A stretch of 64,000 nt of DNA from Salinigranum halophilum (lineage in GTDB: Archaea; Halobacteriota; Halobacteria; Halobacteriales; Haloferacaceae): contig NZ_ML660182.1 of assembly GCF_007004735.1 (NCBI RefSeq), positions 614,130-678,129 on the forward strand, written 5' to 3'. Made by a program: the position numbers and the translations under genes. This document shows, piece by piece, positions 25,460 to 48,690 of this stretch; position 1 is the stretch's first letter, and each line of letters starts with the position of its first letter. The notes below the pieces were generated by a model. The model was not told the origin of the DNA and did no database searches. It saw only the letters and a list, made by a program, of their open reading frames with translations.

Positions 25460-28309
25460 TCAGTCCCAGAACGACTGCGTCCGCGCGTACTGACGCTCCT
25501 GTTCGAGGATGTCCCGGTAGAAGTCGTCCTCGTCCTCCCGCAGTTTGGAGATGATGCGCGCCGCGTTGTGCGGGCCGACGCCGCGGGCCGCCATCGCGAC
25601 GACGGCCTGCTTGCCGTGTGCCTGCACGAGACTCGCCGAGCGGTACGCACGCTCTGTCAACCGCTCCTGTTCGTCGTCCTTGTCCGGCGCGCGGACGGCC
25701 TTCACCGCCTCCTCGTCCCACGGGTTCAGCGCAGCGATTCGCGTCGCCCCGCACTCGGGACACTCGGGTCGGTCGCGCACCCGTCGCACCTTGGTCTTGC
25801 GCCGCCACTCCTGACAGTGCAGACAGAAGAGGATGACCCGGTCGTTCTGGATTCGCTCGCGCACCGCGTCGATGACGCTCGCGTCGGCGTTCTCGGGCAC
25901 GAGGAGTTCTCTCCCGGAGGACTGTCCGCCCGTCCCGAGCGGCGTACGCTCGCGAGCGACCGCGATTTCGATGTCGCCCTCGTCGACCCGGCCGAGTACC
26001 GCTGTCGTCGCGTCGACGGCGAGGTCACGGTGGAACACCTCCCGGACCGCCTCGTCGAACACGGGGGTGTCCGAGAGCGCCGCGAGGAGTCGGTCGCCGC
26101 CGAAGCGTCCCCGACCCTGGTAGCGCTTCAGGGTCCCGAACTTCGCGGCGACCTGCGCCAGCGTGAACTTGAGCGTGTCCGAGTTCTTCAGCGCGAGTTC
26201 ACAGATAGCCTCGACGTGGTCTGGGTCGGTCTCTTCGAGGGTGGAGACGAACGCCGAGGCGCGCGTCTTCGCCGGCACCTCGAACTCGATGCGGTAGGGG
26301 TCGACCTCCATCCCGACCGAGGAGCCGGTTCGCTGGCCGACGAGCGCCGCGAGCATCCGCCCCAGGGTCTCGTTCACCTGGTGGCCGTTGGTCGAGTTCA
26401 CCACGACCTGTCGAGCACTGGCTTCGACGACGAGCCGGTCGTCCGTCGGCAGGGGGTGGTCGGCCTCGACGTGGCGGGAGACGGGGGCGAGCGCCTGCTT
26501 CACCGTCTCCACGTCGGCGGGGTAGCGGGCACACAGGTCCCGCGCGACCGAGTCGAGGTCCGCGCCGCGCTCCAACTGCGTCCCCGCGACGCCCCGGAGT
26601 TCGCCGACCTCCTGCGCGACGGCCTGTGGCACCGGAATCTCCTGGCCGACCCACGAGGGAATCTCTCCCGTCGGGTCCTGGATGGGGCTGACGTTCACCC
26701 GACTCTCGTCGTCGTCGATGTCGTCGATACGCCACATCTCGCCGCGCTGGATGAACGACGCCCCGGGCTCGGCGAAGTTGACGACGAACCGCTCGTCGAG
26801 GGTGCCGACCTGTTTTCGCGAGGATAGGTCGTACACCTCGTAGGTCTCCTCGTCGGGGATCATCGAGAGGTTGGCGTAGAAGTACTGCCACGTGCCTCCC
26901 GACTTCTCCAGTCGGTCCGCGTCCTCGTCGAGCCACACGAGCCGGTTCTTCGACAGCTCTCGCACGACTGCTTTGAACTGTTCCTCGCTCAGGTCGCGGA
27001 AGGGGTACGCCCGGGTGACGAGTTCGTACGCGTCCGGGGCGCGGACCTCGCCGACGTCCATCAACAGGCCGACGAGCTGGTTGGCGACGACGTCGAGGCT
27101 CCCGTGGTGGATGGCCGCAGGTTCGACCTCCCCTTCCCGACCGCGCCGGGCGATGACGAGCGCCTCCAGCGCGTCGTCCGGATGCCCGACGACGACTGTT
27201 CCCTCCGAGACGAGGTCCTGACGGTGTCCGGCGCGGCCGACCCGTTGCAGGAGGCGTGCCACCTCCCGTGGACTGCCGTACTGGACCACGTGGTCGACGC
27301 GTCCCACGTCGATGCCGAGTTCCATCGACGACGTACAGACGAGGCCGTCTATCTCGCCGGCCTTGAACCGGTCTTCGACCTCGACGCGCGCCTCCCGCGA
27401 GAGCGACCCGTGGTGGACCCCGATGGGCTCGTCGAGCTTGGTGAAGAGCGCCCCGAGCGCCTCCGCGGTCTGTCGGGTGTTGACGAATATTAGGGTCGAC
27501 TCGTGCTCGCGCACGAGGTCACGGATGAAGCGGACGTGCGTCGCCATCTCCTCGTCGCACGCCAGTTCCCCGGCGAGGAGGCGGTCCTCGTCTCGTTTTT
27601 CGGGCCAGTGGACGTCGAACGCGACGCGGTTACCGACGTCGACTTCGACGACGGTGAAGTCGCGGTCGCCCGTGAGGAACTTCCCCACCTCCTCGGGCGA
27701 GCCGACCGTCGCGGAGAGGCCGATGCGCTGGAACCGCCCCGAGAGCAGTCCGAGTCGCTCCAGTCCGACCGAGAGCTGTGCGCCCCGCTTCGACGAGGCG
27801 AGTTCGTGGACCTCGTCGACGACCACGTGCGAGACGTCCGAGAGTGCCCGTCGGAGTTTCTCCCCCGTCAGCATCGCCTGCAGCGTCTCAGGCGTCGTCA
27901 CCAGCACGTCCGGCGGGTCGTTCGCCTGCTTCGTCCGCTGGTACCGCGTGGTGTCGCCGTGGCGGACGTCGACCGCCACCCCCAGCTTCTCGCCCCACCA
28001 CTCCAGCCGGTCGCGCATGTCGCGGTTCAGGGCTCTCAGGGGCGTGATGTACAGTGCCGAGATGCCCTCGCGTTCCTCCTCACTCATCGCACAGATGTCC
28101 GAGAACACCGGCAGCATCGCCGTCTCGGTCTTCCCCGTGCCGGTGGGCGCGATGACGAGGGCGTTCCGTCCCGAAGCCAGTGGGGGAATCGCCCGCCGCT
28201 GTGGCTCCGTCGGCGTCGTGAACCCCCGCTCGGAGAGTGCGCTCCGCACCTGCGCGTGGAGGTGGGTGAACGCGTCGAGTCCCTCGCTCTCGGCCGGGGG
28301 ACTGGTCAT
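25460..28309 (-). CDS. lhr: Lhr-type superfamily 2 DNA helicase
   Basis: 949-residue ATP-dependent 3'-5' helicase acting on branched or damaged DNA. Walker A is APTGTGKTE (54-62), the DEAD-type motif II is DEVH (165-168), and SATVGSPEE is motif III. RecA2, the winged helix and the Lhr-core C-terminal domains follow. Residues about 825-855 hold two CxxC pairs (CLHC, CPEC), a zinc ribbon near the C-terminus. Known Lhr-core proteins are involved in DNA repair and replication-fork handling. It is divergent from a small membrane-protein gene. Confidence 0.93.
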   Translation of the reverse strand: MTSPPAESEGLDAFTHLHAQVRSALSERGFTTPTEPQRRAIPPLASGRNALVIAPTGTGKTETAMLPVFSDICAMSEEEREGISALYITPLRALNRDMRDRLEWWGEKLGVAVDVRHGDTTRYQRTKQANDPPDVLVTTPETLQAMLTGEKLRRALSDVSHVVVDEVHELASSKRGAQLSVGLERLGLLSGRFQRIGLSATVGSPEEVGKFLTGDRDFTVVEVDVGNRVAFDVHWPEKRDEDRLLAGELACDEEMATHVRFIRDLVREHESTLIFVNTRQTAEALGALFTKLDEPIGVHHGSLSREARVEVEDRFKAGEIDGLVCTSSMELGIDVGRVDHVVQYGSPREVARLLQRVGRAGHRQDLVSEGTVVVGHPDDALEALVIARRGREGEVEPAAIHHGSLDVVANQLVGLLMDVGEVRAPDAYELVTRAYPFRDLSEEQFKAVVRELSKNRLVWLDEDADRLEKSGGTWQYFYANLSMIPDEETYEVYDLSSRKQVGTLDERFVVNFAEPGASFIQRGEMWRIDDIDDDESRVNVSPIQDPTGEIPSWVGQEIPVPQAVAQEVGELRGVAGTQLERGADLDSVARDLCARYPADVETVKQALAPVSRHVEADHPLPTDDRLVVEASARQVVVNSTNGHQVNETLGRMLAALVGQRTGSSVGMEVDPYRIEFEVPAKTRASAFVSTLEETDPDHVEAICELALKNSDTLKFTLAQVAAKFGTLKRYQGRGRFGGDRLLAALSDTPVFDEAVREVFHRDLAVDATTAVLGRVDEGDIEIAVARERTPLGTGGQSSGRELLVPENADASVIDAVRERIQNDRVILFCLHCQEWRRKTKVRRVRDRPECPECGATRIAALNPWDEEAVKAVRAPDKDDEQERLTERAYRSASLVQAHGKQAVVAMAARGVGPHNAARIISKLREDEDDFYRDILEQERQYARTQSFWD

Positions 28310-28692: not shown

Positions 28693-29484
28693 TCACACCC
28701 GACGGTAGTGTCCCAGCCGCGTCCCGTCGAGCAGGTACAGTTCGCCGTCGGGGAGCGCCTCGGGGAGGAACGGCGAGAGGAAGTCCTGCCCGTCGACGTT
28801 GACCCACGTGCCGCCCGAGCGGTCGTTGAACGCCGGGACGACGACGAGTTCGGTCGCTCCGTGTCCCGCCCCCGTGTCGGCGTCGACATCGACGTCGACG
28901 TGGCCCGTGAACGCGGTGGGGTCGAGACGACCACGAAGCCAGGCCCGCTCGACTCTGCTCCCGCCGACCTCGTCCGCCAGTTTCACCGTGGGGTGTTCGT
29001 GGGCCGTGCAGACCACGTCCGCGCGCAGGACGTCGCTCGCCGGCCAGGTGTGGCCGTGGACGAACCCGACCGGGCCGAGCCGAACGCCGCCCGAGCCGAC
29101 GACTTCCAGGTCGACCCCCCGCCTCGCGACCGTGTCGGCGACGCCGCCGTCGTGGTTGCCGGGGACGAGCGTCATCGGAACCCGGTCGGTCACCCGGTCG
29201 ACGACCGTCACGAGTTCGTCGACTTCGTCACCGTCGGGTGGGCCGATGCGGTGGACGAGGTCACCCAGCACGAGGAGTCTGTCGGGCCGCGTCCGGTCGA
29301 GCAGTCGCTCCAGTCGGGCCAGGCGGACGTCCGCCGCGCTCTCCAGTTCGACGCCGCGCTCGTAGCGCAGGCCGACCTCGATGCCGGCGTGGTAGTCGGC
29401 GACGACGAGGACGCGCTCCCCGTCGGTTCGCGCGACCGCTGCCGGTTCGCCGGGAACCGGTTCGACGCGCGCCCGCCGAGACAT
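28693..29484 (-). CDS. rpe: RPA-operon metallophosphoesterase (COG1407 type)
   Basis: 263-residue calcineurin-like phosphoesterase. Metal motifs are D-x-H in DYHAGIEVG (about residue 31), GDLVHRIG, PGNHDGG and a final VHGHTW. In Haloferax volcanii a gene of this type follows the RPA and RPA-associated genes of one rpa operon and is called rpe. Here its ATG directly follows the TGA of the RPA-associated gene, so it is the third gene of the same operon. Its substrate is unknown; a nuclease role in replication or repair is inferred from the association. Confidence 0.88.
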   Translation of the reverse strand: MSRRARVEPVPGEPAAVARTDGERVLVVADYHAGIEVGLRYERGVELESAADVRLARLERLLDRTRPDRLLVLGDLVHRIGPPDGDEVDELVTVVDRVTDRVPMTLVPGNHDGGVADTVARRGVDLEVVGSGGVRLGPVGFVHGHTWPASDVLRADVVCTAHEHPTVKLADEVGGSRVERAWLRGRLDPTAFTGHVDVDVDADTGAGHGATELVVVPAFNDRSGGTWVNVDGQDFLSPFLPEALPDGELYLLDGTRLGHYRRV

Positions 29485-31371
29485 TCAGATGGCCTTCAGC
29501 GAGTCTTCGGTCGGCTCGTAACACTGCCCGCTCATCAGCGCGCTCTGGATGGCGTCCTCGACTGCCTCGGGGTCCGCCCCGTACTCGTCGACCACGTGCG
29601 CCACGACGGCCTCCCGGGAGGCCCCGTCGCCGTCGTCGAGGGCGTCCATCGCCTCGACGGCGACGGCCTCGAGGTCGACATCGGCACCCGCCTCGTCGTC
29701 GCCGGCGTCGACTGCTTCCGTCTCGTCCGCGGCGGCGTCCGTCTCGCCGGCCACGGTCGCAGGGTCGGGTTCGCTCGCCTCTGGCGCGGCGGCGTCCGTC
29801 GCCGCCTCGCTCGGTGATGCTGCTTCGCTCGGGGCGCTCTCGTCGCGTTCGGCCTCCAGTTCGTCGACGGAGGGGACGTCGATGTCCGCTTCGCCCGCCG
29901 GGGCGACCTCGCTCCCCGTCGCGAACTCGGTGCCGAACTCCGCTTCGATCTGTGCGCGTTCCTCCGCGTCGAGTTCGTACATCCCGTCGTCGCCCGCCTC
30001 GCCAGCGTCACCACCGTCGTCGGTCCCGTCGGTGCCGGACTCTGATTCGACCGTCAGGTCGTCTGTAGCGTCGGTGTCTCCCGTCTGTGTCTCGGCCGTC
30101 TCCGTCGGGGGAGCCGTCGCTCCTGCGTCGAAGTCACCGAGTTCGTCCGTGGAGGGACCGGTCTCGTCGGTGCCGCCCGCATCGAAATCGCCGAGTTCGT
30201 CGTCGGTCGACGCCCCCGATTCGGTCGGTGCCGTCGGCTCGGACGACGCAGCAGCCTCGCTCGACACTGTCGACGTCGGAGCGTCCGTCTCCGACGTGGC
30301 GGTCTCGGCTTCGGGGTCGCTCGACGGCTCCTCGCTGGCACTCGTCTCTGTGGTCGAGGCCGGCGACGCGGTCGACGTCGTCTCCGGTTCACGGGTGTCG
30401 GTCGTGTCGGCCGCGTCGACAGTCGGTTCGGCCGTCTCGGGAGCGGCCGCTGTCGCAGACGGCTCCTCGTCGAACTCGGGGATCGACTCGGCCTCCTCTG
30501 CGGCGTCCGGCGCGGCTGCGGTCTGCTCGTCGGTCGCGTCGACCTGGGCCGGCTCCGCGGTGTCTGTGTCCGACGCCGCGGCCTCCGGACTCGCGGGTGC
30601 TGCCGCGTCGTCCTCGTCGGACACAGCGAGGTCGAGGTCGGCAGCCAGGTCGCCGAGGTCGACGTCCGCACCGGTGTCACCGGGTTCGACTCCGAGTGCG
30701 CGGACGCTGTCGCGGTCGTCCGCCACGACTTCGAGGGCGTCGAGCGCGAGTCGACGGAGTGCGGCGAGGTAGCCCGGCGTGGTCCCGTAGTGGTCGATGG
30801 CGAGCGGAACGCCCTTCGCGAGCGCCTCGTCGACGCCCGCACCGAGGAGCGCCTCGCTGAGGTCGCCCCCGCGCAGGCCCGACCGAAGCGCGGCAGCCAT
30901 GACGCCGACCCGGTCGAGCGTCGCCTCGGCGGTCGAGACGGTCCACCGGTCGCGCGTGTCGGCGTCGACGCGGCTCATCGACTCCGGGCGGACGGAGGTG
31001 AAGACGCGGTCGGAGTCGTCCGGCTGAAACGTCCGGGCTTTCCCCGAGAGCGCGACGAACGCCGGTGGCGACGCCCGGTCGAGGAACGCCATCTCGTCGG
31101 GCTGGTACTGTCCGGCGTAGCTGACGAACGCGCCCGTCGGGTCGACGATTCGCCCCCGAAGGACGTCGTCGTTGACCGGTTCGACCTCGGTCAGGACGCC
31201 GACGGCGAACAGCCGGTTGACCCGCGCCCCGGTCGGCGTCACGACGTAGTTCGGCGCGCGCTCCTCGTCGGATTCGGAGTACGAGAAGGAGGCGTCGTCG
31301 AACTCGGCGGCGAACAGTCGGTAGGCGATCTCGCGGCTCGGCCGGCTCTCGTCGGCCTCGTTCGCGCTCAT
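29485..31371 (-). CDS. RPA-associated protein (COG3390 family) with long acidic linker
   Basis: 628-residue partner of the single-stranded DNA-binding protein RPA. Residues 1-~232 are the conserved domain, starting AYRLFAAEFDD and including an OB-like core (RGRIVDPTGAFVSYAGQY). Residues ~235-560 are a Glu/Asp/Ser/Thr/Ala-rich, apparently disordered linker holding two DELGDFDAG motifs (about 392 and 408). The last ~60 residues look like a winged helix ending YEPTEDSLKAI, reminiscent of the C-terminus of eukaryotic RPA32. The start ATGA overlaps the rpa stop by 4 bp. Partner of the downstream phosphoesterase and upstream RPA. Confidence 0.88.
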   Translation of the reverse strand: MSANEADESRPSREIAYRLFAAEFDDASFSYSESDEERAPNYVVTPTGARVNRLFAVGVLTEVEPVNDDVLRGRIVDPTGAFVSYAGQYQPDEMAFLDRASPPAFVALSGKARTFQPDDSDRVFTSVRPESMSRVDADTRDRWTVSTAEATLDRVGVMAAALRSGLRGGDLSEALLGAGVDEALAKGVPLAIDHYGTTPGYLAALRRLALDALEVVADDRDSVRALGVEPGDTGADVDLGDLAADLDLAVSDEDDAAAPASPEAAASDTDTAEPAQVDATDEQTAAAPDAAEEAESIPEFDEEPSATAAAPETAEPTVDAADTTDTREPETTSTASPASTTETSASEEPSSDPEAETATSETDAPTSTVSSEAAASSEPTAPTESGASTDDELGDFDAGGTDETGPSTDELGDFDAGATAPPTETAETQTGDTDATDDLTVESESGTDGTDDGGDAGEAGDDGMYELDAEERAQIEAEFGTEFATGSEVAPAGEADIDVPSVDELEAERDESAPSEAASPSEAATDAAAPEASEPDPATVAGETDAAADETEAVDAGDDEAGADVDLEAVAVEAMDALDDGDGASREAVVAHVVDEYGADPEAVEDAIQSALMSGQCYEPTEDSLKAI

Positions 31372-43306: not shown

Positions 43307-43630
43307 TCACAACACCCGGAGTCGGTAGCCGTCGGCGTCGGTCGCATCGGCGAGTCGGTCGGTCTCTGCCGCCGTGTCGAGCACCGCCGCGACGAAGGAC
43401 TTCGGGACCTCGACACCGATGAAGTCGTTGTCGCCGGGCACGGTCAGCCGCGCCATCGTCTTCTGGGTCCCGTGGTCGTTGTAGATGCTGCCGACCTTCT
43501 CACCGTCGCGGAGGAAGTGTAGCGTGACGTCCGTCGCCGCCAGGGTGTCGAAGTTGACCTCGAACACCATGTGGTCGTCTTCGATCCGCGCGAGCAGTCG
43601 GCCGTCGTGTTCGACGATCTTCGTGTTCAC
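43307..43630 (-). CDS. Conserved haloarchaeal protein, unknown function
   Basis: 107-residue soluble protein starting with GTG at 43630. Characteristic: NTKIVEHDGRLLARIEDDHMVFEV, TDVTLHFLRDGEKVGSIYNDHGTQ, GDNDFIGVEVPKSFVAAVLDTA. Mixed alpha/beta, no cysteine, no signal, no family I can name. It is divergent from the XPD-like helicase, the two starts being 84 bp apart, so their promoters share this interval. Confidence 0.7.
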   Translation of the reverse strand: MNTKIVEHDGRLLARIEDDHMVFEVNFDTLAATDVTLHFLRDGEKVGSIYNDHGTQKTMARLTVPGDNDFIGVEVPKSFVAAVLDTAAETDRLADATDADGYRLRVL

Positions 43631-43683
43631 GGGACCGCTAGCGACCGTGGCGGCATAGCGTCGGCGGTGACGGGGTCCCCGAG

Positions 43684-43692
43684 GTTCAAATA
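43684..43692 (+). promoter_or_regulatory. TATA-like box of the XPD-like helicase
   Basis: GTTCAAATA centred about 27 nt before the GTG at 43715, supporting that start over the upstream in-frame ATG at 43571. Confidence 0.45.
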
Positions 43693-43714
43693 CGAGACCG
43701 CCACAGCTCTCACC

Positions 43715-46081
43715 GTGACGACAGAGGGCGACACCGCTTTGTGTGCCGGGCAGCGAGAGGCGGGCGTGCAGTGGGAGGAGGTGTTCGGCCACGACTCGCC
43801 GTACCCCGAGCAGGTCGACGGCATCGAGACCGCCATCGAGGTGGGCCACCGAGGCGGGTTCACCGTCGTCGAGGGCGCTTGCGGGACGGGCAAGACGATG
43901 CTGGCGCTCACCGCCGGTATCGAACTCGTCCGTGACCCCGAGAGCACGTACGAGCGCGTCCTGGTGCTGACGAGCGTCAAACAGCAACTGCGCCAGTTCG
44001 AAGCCGACATCGAGACCATCAACGCGGGGCTCCCCGACGAGTGGCGGCCCGTTTCGGCGCTCACGCTCGTCGGCAAGGCGGACGTCTGTCCGTACGCCCG
44101 CGAGCGACGGGGACGGGTCGACACGTCGAACGTCTACGAGCGCTGTGAGGGGCTCCGCGAGCGGACCCGCAACCTCTCGGGCGAGAACGGTCCGACGACC
44201 GCCGGCGCACTCGCCAGCGAGGCGCGGCGGGCGCAGACCGGCCTCGCCGACTCGGGGGCGAGCGGCGTCAGCTATCTCGAGACCGCCGGTGATTCGACGC
44301 CCTACCTCCCCGAGATGCCCGAGTACGACGGGACGGAGTTTTGCCCGTTCTACGCGCAGTACCTCGACGACCTCCCCGATGAGGGCGAACCTGCCGAGGC
44401 CATCCCGTTCGCGTTCGAAGACCGCGGTCTCATCGACACCGAGACGCTCGTGGGACTGGCCGCCTCACACGGGAGCTGTCCACACTCGGTGATGGGCGCG
44501 CTCCTCCCCGAGGTGGAAGTCGTCATCGGCAACTACTACCACGCGTTCGACCCGACGACGGCGGCGACGTTCACGGGCGCGCTCGTGGACGAGTCGACGT
44601 TCGTCGTCTGCGACGAGGCGCACATGGTCGAACCGCGCGTGCGAGACCTGGTGAGCGACGGTGTCGCCGATGTGACGCTCAGAGACGCGGTGAACGAGCT
44701 GAACCGCATCGTCACGCCGCTGGAGTTCGACGACGCCGGCCACGAGACCGACGACGCGCGACTCGTTCGCGAGGAGTTCGCGGACGCCGACGTGACGCTC
44801 GAAGAGGTCACGGCGGTCCGAGACGCCATCGTCGCGCTCCGCGAGGAATTGAGCCGCCGGGTCGAGACGTACCTCGACCGCGAGCGCCCGGACTGGCGCG
44901 CCTCGCTCGCCGACCGTCCAGAGACGTACGACGACCACGAACTGCCCCTCCGAGACCCCACGTCGACCGAGGAGGACGAACTCACCCGGTGGGCGCGGGA
45001 GGCGGGCCATCTCGACGCGTGGACGCGCGCCGAGGCCGTCGGAGCAGTCGTCGCCCGCGTCCTGAACGAACTCGACGACGAGGACCAGACGCGCGCGGTG
45101 ACCGCCGCTGGTCGGACACTCACGGCGTGGCGCGCGCTCGACCACGGCACCTTCTTCCGCGAAATCGAACTCGAGCGCACGTGGGACGAGACGGCGAGCG
45201 AGTGGCGCCGGGGGTACAACGCGCGGCTCGCGCTCCACAACTGTCTCCCCGGCGAGGCCATCGCCGACCGCCTCTCGGAGTTCGGTGGCGGCGTCCTGAT
45301 GAGCGCGACGCTCGAACCGATGGACGTCTTCCGGCAGGTCACGGGCCTCGACGCGCTCGCAGACGGCGGTCGACCGGTCGTCGAGCGGACGTACGGGCTC
45401 GGGTTCCCCGAAGCGCACCGCGCGAGCTTCGCCGTCGACGCGCCCAAGTACACCTACGAGAACCGCGGCTCCGTGGGGACCGACTCGGAGACGCGAGCGG
45501 TGTACGTCGACGCCGTCTGCGAGGTGGCCCGCTCGCCCGGGAACGTCCTCGTCGGGATGCCCAGCTACGCCGAGGCGCGGTGGATGGCCGAACGACTCGA
45601 CGAGACCGTCGAGAAGGCTGTCCTCGTCGACGAGGCGTCGGGTGACGACGCGACGGAGTCGCTGAAGAGCGAGTTCTTCGCCGGTTCCGGCAAGGTGCTC
45701 GTGACGAGTCTCCGCGGGACACTGACCGAGGGCGTCGACTACCGCGGCGACCGGCTCTCGGCGGCCGTCGTCTGCGGGGTCCCCATCGTCGACACGTCGA
45801 GCCCCCGCACGAAGGCTGTTCGAGCGGCGTACGACCGGGAGTTCGGCGACGGCTTTCGGACGGCGTTGCTCGTTCCCGCCGTGAGAAAAGCCCGGCAGGC
45901 GCTCGGCCGCGTCATCCGGGGCACCGACGAGCGAGGGGTCCGCGTCCTCGTCGACGAACGCTACGCCCGCGACTCGTGGGACAGCGTCCGCGGGTTCTTC
46001 CCCGAGACCGAACGCGAGGAGTTCCGGCCCGTCAGCGCCGACATGCTCTCGTTTGGCCTCGACCGGTTCTGGTCGGAGTGA
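43715..46081 (+). CDS. XPD/DinG-type iron-sulfur DNA helicase
   Basis: 788-residue superfamily 2 helicase with 5'-3' polarity in characterised relatives. Walker A is GACGTGKT (54-61), and the DEAH box is CDEAHMVE. The Fe-S domain has four cysteines, at residues 125, 144, 210 and 255 (VCPYAR, RCEG, FCPFYA, SCPHSVM), more widely spaced than in canonical XPD. GTG at 43715 matches the start of the family and has a TATA-like box at the right distance. Probable role in excision repair or transcription-linked repair. Divergent from the 107-aa gene. Confidence 0.9.
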   Translation: MTTEGDTALCAGQREAGVQWEEVFGHDSPYPEQVDGIETAIEVGHRGGFTVVEGACGTGKTMLALTAGIELVRDPESTYERVLVLTSVKQQLRQFEADIETINAGLPDEWRPVSALTLVGKADVCPYARERRGRVDTSNVYERCEGLRERTRNLSGENGPTTAGALASEARRAQTGLADSGASGVSYLETAGDSTPYLPEMPEYDGTEFCPFYAQYLDDLPDEGEPAEAIPFAFEDRGLIDTETLVGLAASHGSCPHSVMGALLPEVEVVIGNYYHAFDPTTAATFTGALVDESTFVVCDEAHMVEPRVRDLVSDGVADVTLRDAVNELNRIVTPLEFDDAGHETDDARLVREEFADADVTLEEVTAVRDAIVALREELSRRVETYLDRERPDWRASLADRPETYDDHELPLRDPTSTEEDELTRWAREAGHLDAWTRAEAVGAVVARVLNELDDEDQTRAVTAAGRTLTAWRALDHGTFFREIELERTWDETASEWRRGYNARLALHNCLPGEAIADRLSEFGGGVLMSATLEPMDVFRQVTGLDALADGGRPVVERTYGLGFPEAHRASFAVDAPKYTYENRGSVGTDSETRAVYVDAVCEVARSPGNVLVGMPSYAEARWMAERLDETVEKAVLVDEASGDDATESLKSEFFAGSGKVLVTSLRGTLTEGVDYRGDRLSAAVVCGVPIVDTSSPRTKAVRAAYDREFGDGFRTALLVPAVRKARQALGRVIRGTDERGVRVLVDERYARDSWDSVRGFFPETEREEFRPVSADMLSFGLDRFWSE

Positions 46082-46965: not shown

Positions 46966-48690
46966 TCACTTCGACCATCGTGCATCCGAGAGCGTCTGTT
47001 GGACGGCTTCCTCGCCGACCGCCGCCGCGAGCGCCTCGAACCCCTGTCGTTCCGTACGGTCGCGGGCGTTCGCCACCAGCCGCGAGACGATGAACTCCGG
47101 CGTCGACGTACCGATCTGGCCGAACCGCGGCTGGTAATCCACCTCGAGTTCCAGGTCGGGTGTGAGCCCCTCCGCGAAGATGCCGTCGGTGCGTGCCTCG
47201 TCGGGGAGCGGCGAGAGGTCGTCGGCGAGGTGGGTGACGTACACGCCGAGCGCGTCGCGGTCGACGGTGAGCGACACGAGGCCGTTGAGGAGGTCCGCCG
47301 CGCGCCCGGGTTCGGTGATGGCCTCGAACTCGTCGACGAGCATCAGCGTCCGCCCCTCGCGCGACAGCGGCGGGACGATGGTCTTCAGCGTCGATTCGAG
47401 GACGCCCGCGTTGAACGAGGCGTGTCGCCGGTGGAAGACGACGGCGTCGAACCGGCCGACCGCTGCGCGTTCGGCCGGCACCGGGAGCCCCATCGACGCG
47501 AGGAGGGCGACCTGACAGAGCGTCTCCAGCAGCGTCGTCTTCCCCCCGCTGTTGGCACCGGTGAGGACGGCGACCCTGTCCGAAGACGGCGCGGTGAGCG
47601 AGTGGTCCCCGATGCCGTACGAGACCGGCTGTGGGTCCGACAGGCCGAGGTTCCGCGCCCGGTCGACCGCGAGGCCGTCCTTGACGAGCGTGGGTCTGGT
47701 GAGGTCGTTCGTGTCGGCGAACCGTCCCAGCGAGAGCGCGACGGCGATGTCGTCGACTGCCGACACCGCCCGTTCGACGTCGTCGCGGACCTCGTCGACG
47801 GCCGCCTCCAACTCGGTGCGGACCGTCGTCTCCCGCTCGTCGACCCGTGCGCGACGGTCGGCGACCAGCGCTCGAAGCGAACTCGAGACGAAGTCCGCGG
47901 CGTCGACGGCGTCGTCGGCAGTCGCGGCGGTCACCGTCCCTCGCGTCAGGTCGGTCTCCGCGGCGACGTACTCGACGAACGCGTGGCGGAATTCGGAGAG
48001 GTCGCGGACACCGCGCTCGCGGATGCTGTCGATGAGGTCGAACGCGCTCCCCTCAAGTTCCTCGGCGGCCGCCAACTGCGTCCGTAGTCGGTCGAGTTCG
48101 GCGTCTGCGCCCATCGCCACCTGCTCGTCCGCGTCGAGTGCCTCCAGCGCGTCGGCTGCGTCCGCGAGTCGGTCCTCGTCGATGTCCTCGAGCGCCGCGA
48201 ACGTCTCACCGCCGAGTCCCGCCTCGCGGAGCGCGAGCGCCGCACGGACGGCGGCCGGTTTCGTCACCTCCGCGTCGTCGTACGCCTCGAACGCGTCGAT
48301 GACACGGGTGCGGCCCCCCTCGTCGAGCGCACGCCACGCGTCACGAGCGGCGAGCACCTCGTCGAGCCGGGCCTCCTGTTCGGCCCGGTCGGTCAGCGGG
48401 GTGAGGACGCGGATTCGGTCGGCCGCGTGCGCCGTGACCGCGTGGGCAGCCGCCCGCGTGACCAGGTCGTCGTAGACCTTCCGGACGTCACGTGTCGCCA
48501 GCAGGTCCATCCCGGCCTCCCCCTGCGCCCGCCTGAGGATGCGTGTGGCCCGTCCACGGGTCACGCCAGCCCCGACGAGCCGTCGGACGTCCGCGGACTC
48601 GATGGCGTCGACGGCTTCCACCTCCCCGAGCGAGTCGCGGAGTCGTTCGGCCGTCTTCGGTCCGACGCCCCAGAATTCCTCGAGTCGCAT
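46966..48690 (-). CDS. HhH-MutS-like DNA-repair ATPase
   Basis: 574-residue protein. The N-terminus is a helix-hairpin-helix DNA-binding domain (EEFWGVGPKTAERLRDSLG, residues 4-23), the middle a long helical, coiled-coil-like lever region (about 90-330), and the C-terminus a MutS-type ABC ATPase: Walker A GANSGGKTT (379-387), Walker B LMLVDEFE. No mismatch-recognition or Smr domain is present. This architecture is known in archaea as MutS2/MutS3-like; the precise role, perhaps recombination or mismatch-independent repair, is unproven. AT-rich intergenic DNA follows its 3' end. Confidence 0.88.
   Translation of the reverse strand: MRLEEFWGVGPKTAERLRDSLGEVEAVDAIESADVRRLVGAGVTRGRATRILRRAQGEAGMDLLATRDVRKVYDDLVTRAAAHAVTAHAADRIRVLTPLTDRAEQEARLDEVLAARDAWRALDEGGRTRVIDAFEAYDDAEVTKPAAVRAALALREAGLGGETFAALEDIDEDRLADAADALEALDADEQVAMGADAELDRLRTQLAAAEELEGSAFDLIDSIRERGVRDLSEFRHAFVEYVAAETDLTRGTVTAATADDAVDAADFVSSSLRALVADRRARVDERETTVRTELEAAVDEVRDDVERAVSAVDDIAVALSLGRFADTNDLTRPTLVKDGLAVDRARNLGLSDPQPVSYGIGDHSLTAPSSDRVAVLTGANSGGKTTLLETLCQVALLASMGLPVPAERAAVGRFDAVVFHRRHASFNAGVLESTLKTIVPPLSREGRTLMLVDEFEAITEPGRAADLLNGLVSLTVDRDALGVYVTHLADDLSPLPDEARTDGIFAEGLTPDLELEVDYQPRFGQIGTSTPEFIVSRLVANARDRTERQGFEALAAAVGEEAVQQTLSDARWSK

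Follow-up and report, generated by a model that had tools for sequence, protein, structure and literature searches.

Locus and Gene Neighborhood

The rpap1 gene lies on the minus strand of the window, by which we mean the whole 64-kb stretch of DNA that was analyzed. Its open reading frame starts with ATG, encodes 628 residues, and ends in YEPTEDSLKAI. The gene and its same-strand neighbors are the following:

25460–28309, minus strand: Lhr-type helicase, 949 aa (Pfam DEAD, DEAD_assoc, and WH_Lhr), the next same-strand gene after rpe and a neighbor only
28693–29484, minus strand: rpe, calcineurin-like phosphoesterase (Pfam Metallophos, 6.5e-10), abutting rpap1 immediately downstream
29485–31371, minus strand: rpap1 (COG3390; orthologue of HVO_1337/RpaA2/Rfa7), archaeal Rpa2/RPA32-type subunit, 628 aa
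31368–32669, minus strand: rpa1, 433 aa (NCBIfam PRK07218, E 6e-197), immediately upstream of rpap1 with a 4-base overlap

The arrangement with rpa1 upstream and rpe downstream, both immediately adjacent to rpap1 and on the same strand, is found at 78 of 78 orthologous loci. It agrees with the association of this family with Rpa1 that had been supposed in an earlier note on this DNA, and an Rpa1–Rpap1 association is published for H. volcanii, as cited in PMC7776575 and PMC8329085. The same window also contains an XPD/Rad3-like helicase (DEAD_2, Helicase_C_2; 43571–46081) and a further DNA-repair gene, encoding a helix-hairpin-helix and MutS_V protein (46966–48690). The recruitment of the Lhr and XPD-like helicases, which the earlier note had envisaged, is without support: the Lhr gene is a neighbor with one gene in between, and nothing in the analysis connects either helicase to RPAP1. 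A scan of viral sequences did not find relatives of the RPAP proteins.

Domain Architecture and Identity of RPAP1

A structural model of RPAP1 was built by AF2 with 55 orthologues. It consists of an OB fold, a long helix, a helix-turn-helix extending to residue 216, a disordered stretch interrupted by one helix, and a winged helix (WH). Together with the sequence comparisons described below, it delimits the following features:

30922–31371, minus strand: N-terminal OB fold, residues ~1–150, of the RPA32 DBD-D / P. abyssi OB-3 type, AF2 strands at 53–134
30697–30921, minus strand: helical extension, residues ~151–225, with the end of helix 137–164 and then the helix-turn-helix; AF2 pLDDT about 82–95
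29689–30696, minus strand: acidic low-complexity linker, residues 226–561, net charge −99
30121–30213, minus strand: two DELGDFDAG copies within the linker, residues 387–417, from the count of the LG[DE]F[DE] motif
29863–29994, minus strand: conserved island within the linker, residues 460–503, ~45 residues, DDGMYELDAEERAQIEAEFGTEFATGSEVAPAGEADIDVPSVDE, with a short helix at 469–479
29488–29688, minus strand: C-terminal winged helix, residues 562–628, from the AF2 fold and a profile match to P. abyssi RPA32

When the full model is submitted to Foldseek, ranks 1–3 are occupied by chains of P. abyssi Rpa2 (E 4.7e-7 to 5e-6), the next matches being unrelated OB folds at E 1.7e-4. VIA-align superimposes the model on 8aas_B, also P. 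abyssi Rpa2, with Z 12.6 over 166 residues (model 19–195), the post-OB helices included; the OB matches that come after it include Stn1 and human RPA32. By both programs the OB fold is thus of the Rpa2 (DBD-D / OB-3) type. The long helix 137–164 stands where Rpa2 has its trimerization helix and, with the helices 168–177, 182–195, and 199–216 behind it, provides the trimerization helix and helix-turn-helix of the post-OB layout described for P. abyssi Rpa2 (PMC10122647). A single-sequence, full-length phmmer search of the PDB places both ends of the protein colinearly on P. abyssi RPA32, with E 0.03, which is weak alone. The pN/pS ratio is 0.17 for the OB fold and 0.40 for the helical region.

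As the OB fold, the post-OB helix, the helix-turn-helix, and the winged helix follow in the same order as in archaeal Rpa2, RPAP1 is a homologue of archaeal Rpa2/RPA32 and not merely an analogue. The earlier note had spoken of a functional RPA32 analogue; the likeness to RPA32 stands, the domains and their order matching those of archaeal Rpa2, whereas the term analogue is too weak. This identity is not new. MacNeill 2021 (PMC8329085) gives an OB fold at 1–155 and a wH at 561–623 for H. volcanii Rpap1, counts the RPA-associated proteins among the RPA2 orthologues, and traces the first suggestion of the wH to Makarova & Koonin 2013. The haloarchaeal RPA32 homologue was worked out between 2013 and 2021, and the corresponding claim of the earlier note therefore adds little, having reached from sequence alone the view of the protein that is already published.

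C-Terminal Winged Helix

The last ~67 residues form a winged helix with the H-H-H-E-E topology, for which the AF2 mean pLDDT is 85 when modeled alone and 96–98 in the full model. Compared with RPA32C, as the earlier note had proposed, the domain superimposes on human 4mqv with a VIA-align Z of 8.8 (61 residues, 1.7 Å), and on the winged helix of P. abyssi Rpa2 (9f27) with Z 9.3–10.0. The best PDB match of a profile made from 55 winged helices is P. abyssi RPA32 (E 0.005), and hhalign aligns the domain with the winged helix of an RPAP1 homologue outside the order at E 1.7e-6. The profile, VIA-align, and hhalign results all point to a C-terminal winged helix of the RPA32 type. Of 80 orthologous loci, 78 have it, the exceptions being one truncated by a contig end and one with a frame that stops early, and it is present in 64 of 64 good-quality genomes sampled from the order; its pN/pS is 0.43. 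Pfam matches to PqqD and linker histone are below the cut-off, and a match of the winged-helix profile to gyrase A in the organism's own genome (L096, E 0.4) is due to chance.

We have also considered that the domain might be a DNA-binding or MCM-type winged helix instead of a protein-binding one of the RPA32 type. When the domain is aligned alone, the archaeal MCM winged helix 2ma3 is the best structural match by Z (11.0, above Rpa2), and the Pfam family MCM_WH_arc reaches 14.0 bits. Many other winged-helix folds match as well, so that the fold alone leaves the subfamily unsettled, and it is the sequence and the domain order that settle it. The Pfam score, however, is below the cut-off of 26.1 and the protein contains no AAA+ domain, which excludes it from the MCM family, while RPA32 is the best sequence match and the domain is placed behind an Rpa2-type OB fold. 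The net charge of −16, together with the D/S residues that helix 3 has where the organism's own MCM winged helix has K, argues against contact with DNA. We consider this assignment very improbable. The organism's own genome has two MCM-like genes (L115 and L116), the L116 copy having a weaker winged-helix match; the L115 frame seems to hold an intein end, with VVLHN just ahead of the resumed MCM core.

Acidic Linker and Its Conserved Island

The two ends of the protein are joined by a linker of 336 residues, close to the ~330 Glu/Asp/Ser/Thr-rich residues that the earlier note had placed between a conserved N-terminal domain and the winged helix. It is composed of 30% D/E and about 1% K/R, with D/E/S/T/A/P/G making up 88%, and the AF2 pLDDT is below 50 across most of it. 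The longest acidic low-complexity run covers 264 residues, the next longest among the likely genes of the window, which served as the comparison set, being 120 residues. Across 79 orthologues the linker length varies between 206 and 405 residues, with a median of 281. The description of the linker as acidic and of low complexity is hence confirmed, but it is not uniform or featureless, residues ~460–503 being as conserved as the domains.

This island emerged when the window protein was scored, 12-mer by 12-mer from residue 141 onward, against 77 orthologues as well as shuffled linkers. The z values reach 8.6 at residues ~460–503, comparable to the folded domains, and are near 0 for most of the linker. 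The island is conserved in nearly all of the 78 orthologues, with the consensus (M/E)-(Y/F)-E-L-D-x-E-E-R-E-E-I-E-x-E-(F/Y)-G-T-(E/D)-F-S-T-G-x-E-V-x-x-P-G-E-A-D-I-D-V-P. In 79 sequences there is no variation at motif positions 16 (E), 21 (F), and 27 (V), the latter two corresponding to F483 and V489, and the conserved aromatics stand in an acidic context (net charge −13). The pN/pS of the island is 0.36, near the values of the helical region and the winged helix, whereas the flanking linker gives 0.78 on one side and 0.81 on the other, values that are only rough because the alignment of the linker is uncertain. The island evolves like a folded domain. Its position is variable, 131–277 residues after the helical region and 23–101 before the winged helix; being conserved but variably placed, it behaves as expected of a docking motif carried by a flexible tether. 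In the AF2 single-chain model it contains only the short helix 469–479, at moderate confidence.

With a profile of the island, 59 of 60 genomes of the family give a match, the sole miss being a 56%-complete genome. A sample of the phylum yields it in 24 genomes belonging to the family and the order, and no same-order genome among those listed lacks it; two weak matches in other genomes of the phylum lie outside the RPAP1 gene and were taken as chance. Searching the organism's own genome with the island gives no other site (best chance match E 0.43), and a search of the PDB returns a single weak low-complexity match, pTAC6, at E 0.03. From these searches the island appears to be unique to RPAP1 and to occur almost always as a single copy in a haloarchaeal genome. 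Within the family, genome G046 has it twice (C2:12543–12701 and C1:2256029–2256187), in frames of 365 and 578 aa, which possibly reflects an additional RPAP1 on a different replicon. The accounts of haloarchaeal Rpap1 consulted do not mention the island, an earlier mention in Stroud 2012 or Skowyra & MacNeill 2012 being possible, and it is apparently the one new point on RPAP1.

A further motif in the linker, LG(D/E)F(D/E), is weaker. Outside the island, LG[DE]F[DE] occurs 43 times in 37 of 79 orthologue linkers against 0.06 expected after shuffling, in a tally that counts related sequences more than once. In Haloarcula-like genomes a GDF(D/E)PG version directly precedes the island, so the two motifs may act together.

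Two alternative explanations bear on the linker. Acidic low-complexity sequence builds up in haloarchaeal linkers, and the long linker could be a by-product of halophilic adaptation that does no more than tether the domains and keep the protein soluble, its length and content being of no particular functional importance; we see the chances of this as evenly balanced. It would account for most of the linker having only shuffle-level similarity between orthologues with pN/pS about 0.8, for the wide range of lengths, for the comparable acidic stretch in a putative GINS gene beside PriS (L114), and for the presence of just ~13 residues at the linker position in a relative outside the order. However, it leaves the island and the LGDFD-type motif unexplained, and it probably holds for the linker apart from these two elements. 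The other alternative concerns the island itself, which might act intramolecularly, binding the OB folds of Rpa1 and Rpap1 when no DNA is present, by auto-inhibition or DNA mimicry, instead of binding an external partner. The acidic tips of bacterial SSB offer an analogy. The net charge, the invariant F483 and V489, and the conserved aromatics would all fit such a role, as would the restriction of the island to haloarchaeal RPAP1, a constant companion of rpa1. The AF2 single chain, on the other hand, gives just the short helix of moderate confidence, and we regard intramolecular binding as doubtful. To us the island is probably a haloarchaea-specific docking motif that recruits a partner of its own in replication or repair, or a regulator of the Rpa1 OB folds; the sequence patterns would then describe a two-site arm with the winged helix at the tip, the island part-way, and the LGDFD-type motif as an accessory. 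If this is true, the island would be the first interaction motif to be defined in the RPA arm of haloarchaea.

Ahead of its C-terminal domain the probable GINS, assigned by neighborhood and having no Pfam hit (L114, 325–1257), has a long stretch rich in D/E/S/T/A/G. Expanded linkers may be a common feature of haloarchaeal replication proteins.

Origin of the Tether and Related Proteins

Outside the order but in the same phylum, an RPAP1 homologue of 293 aa (L118, 1492–2373) adjoins an rpa1 gene. It has 45% identity over the OB fold and helices, followed by about 13 acidic residues and then the winged helix, and it probably shows the ancestral short form. Among basal members of the order there are three complete frames of 428–556 residues and a fourth cut by a contig end; in the basal families (L126–L129) the island is kept in the form W-D-E-x-x-R-E-x-V-x-E-E-F-G-x-x-F, the remaining linker being unalignable by eye. 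Since the joint between OB fold and winged helix is only ~13 residues in this relative outside the order, it appears that an RPA2 already containing both domains gained the long tether and the island in the haloarchaeal lineage. This provides a clear example of a growing tether, from 13 to ~280 residues, that acquires a new constrained element.

The organism's own RPAP3 (L090, 1501–2106, 201 aa) resembles RPAP1 in being 58% identical to it over residues 6–156 and in having its partner gene, rpa3, just upstream. Unlike RPAP1, it has neither a long linker nor an island, and only ~45 residues extend beyond the shared part, which is too short for a complete winged helix. In a hand alignment in PMC8329085 the tail of H. 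volcanii Rpap3 is treated as a winged helix; we find no similarity between the RPAP3 tail and the RPAP1 winged helix (z ≤ 1). For the pair outside the order (L118/L120), the RPAP3 tail matches the RPAP1 helix-turn-helix with z 4.5, the haloarchaeal pair being not significant. That the tail corresponds to the helix-turn-helix rather than to the winged helix is only a suggestion from these alignments.

Proposed Mechanism and Partners

RPA is the hub via which repair and replication enzymes locate single-stranded DNA. We propose, with a probability of roughly 0.85, that RPAP1 is the Rpa2/RPA32 subunit of a haloarchaeal Rpa1–Rpap1 complex and forms a recruitment arm tipped by the winged helix, with a second docking motif embedded in it. 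The OB fold and the helices that follow would attach RPAP1 to Rpa1 and help to cover single-stranded DNA. The winged helix, on a disordered acidic tether of roughly 280 residues (336 here), would serve as bait for replication or repair enzymes, as in P. abyssi Rpa2. Part-way along the tether, the island would most likely be a further docking site, used by a partner enzyme or, in the DNA-free state, by the OB folds of RPA itself. Both the recruitment by the haloarchaeal winged helix and any role of the island are what we infer from these comparisons.

In P. abyssi, the Rpa2 winged helix binds PriSL and PolD, and the acidic linker that joins it to the OB core contributes to primase stimulation (PMC11686378). 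The PolD contacts of the P. abyssi winged helix, K229, Y230, and K233, correspond to E, A, and A in the window protein. The primase contacts keep their charge in part: in most orthologues E250 is replaced by D/S, E259 is E, E261 is D/T, and K266 is K, and in the window protein two of the four equivalents are S and T. The organism's own PriS is without most of the primase contact residues (R105, K239, E244, and R317) according to a pairwise alignment. With the PolD contacts not kept and the PriS residues mostly missing, the partners known from P. abyssi cannot simply be transferred. RPA1 is, moreover, non-essential in H. volcanii, and its deletion causes no damage sensitivity (PMC7776575), so any recruitment role must be dispensable or redundant.

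Comparison with Known Systems

Human RPA32 and STN1 likewise combine an OB fold with a C-terminal winged helix, and both match structurally with Z 8–9. Human RPA32 differs in its longer N-terminus before the OB fold and its far shorter linker, and different partners are expected. The long phospho-regulatory N-terminal tail of eukaryotic RPA32 is absent here, model residue 19 aligning with human RPA32 residue 49, so that at most 18 residues precede the aligned fold.

The closer likeness is to P. abyssi Rpa2 (PDB 8aaj, 8aas, 9f26, and 9f27), in which the OB fold, post-OB helix, helix-turn-helix, acidic linker, and winged helix follow in the same order. Its linker, however, has about 20 Glu-rich residues compared with 336 in the window protein, and the haloarchaeal winged helix has kept the primase contacts in part and the PolD contacts for the most part not. 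Further, P. abyssi Rpa2 belongs to a heterotrimer that includes Rpa3; for H. volcanii it is reported that Rpa1, Rpa2, and Rpa3 do not come together in a single complex.

H. volcanii Rpap1 (HVO_1337, 623 aa) and Halobacterium Rfa7 (COG3390) are encoded in the same rpa1-rpap1-rpe operon, and the H. volcanii protein is of near-identical length and likewise has the N-terminal OB fold and the C-terminal wH (PMC8329085, PMC5924565). Nothing distinguishes the window orthologue from it, and the island is common to the whole order.
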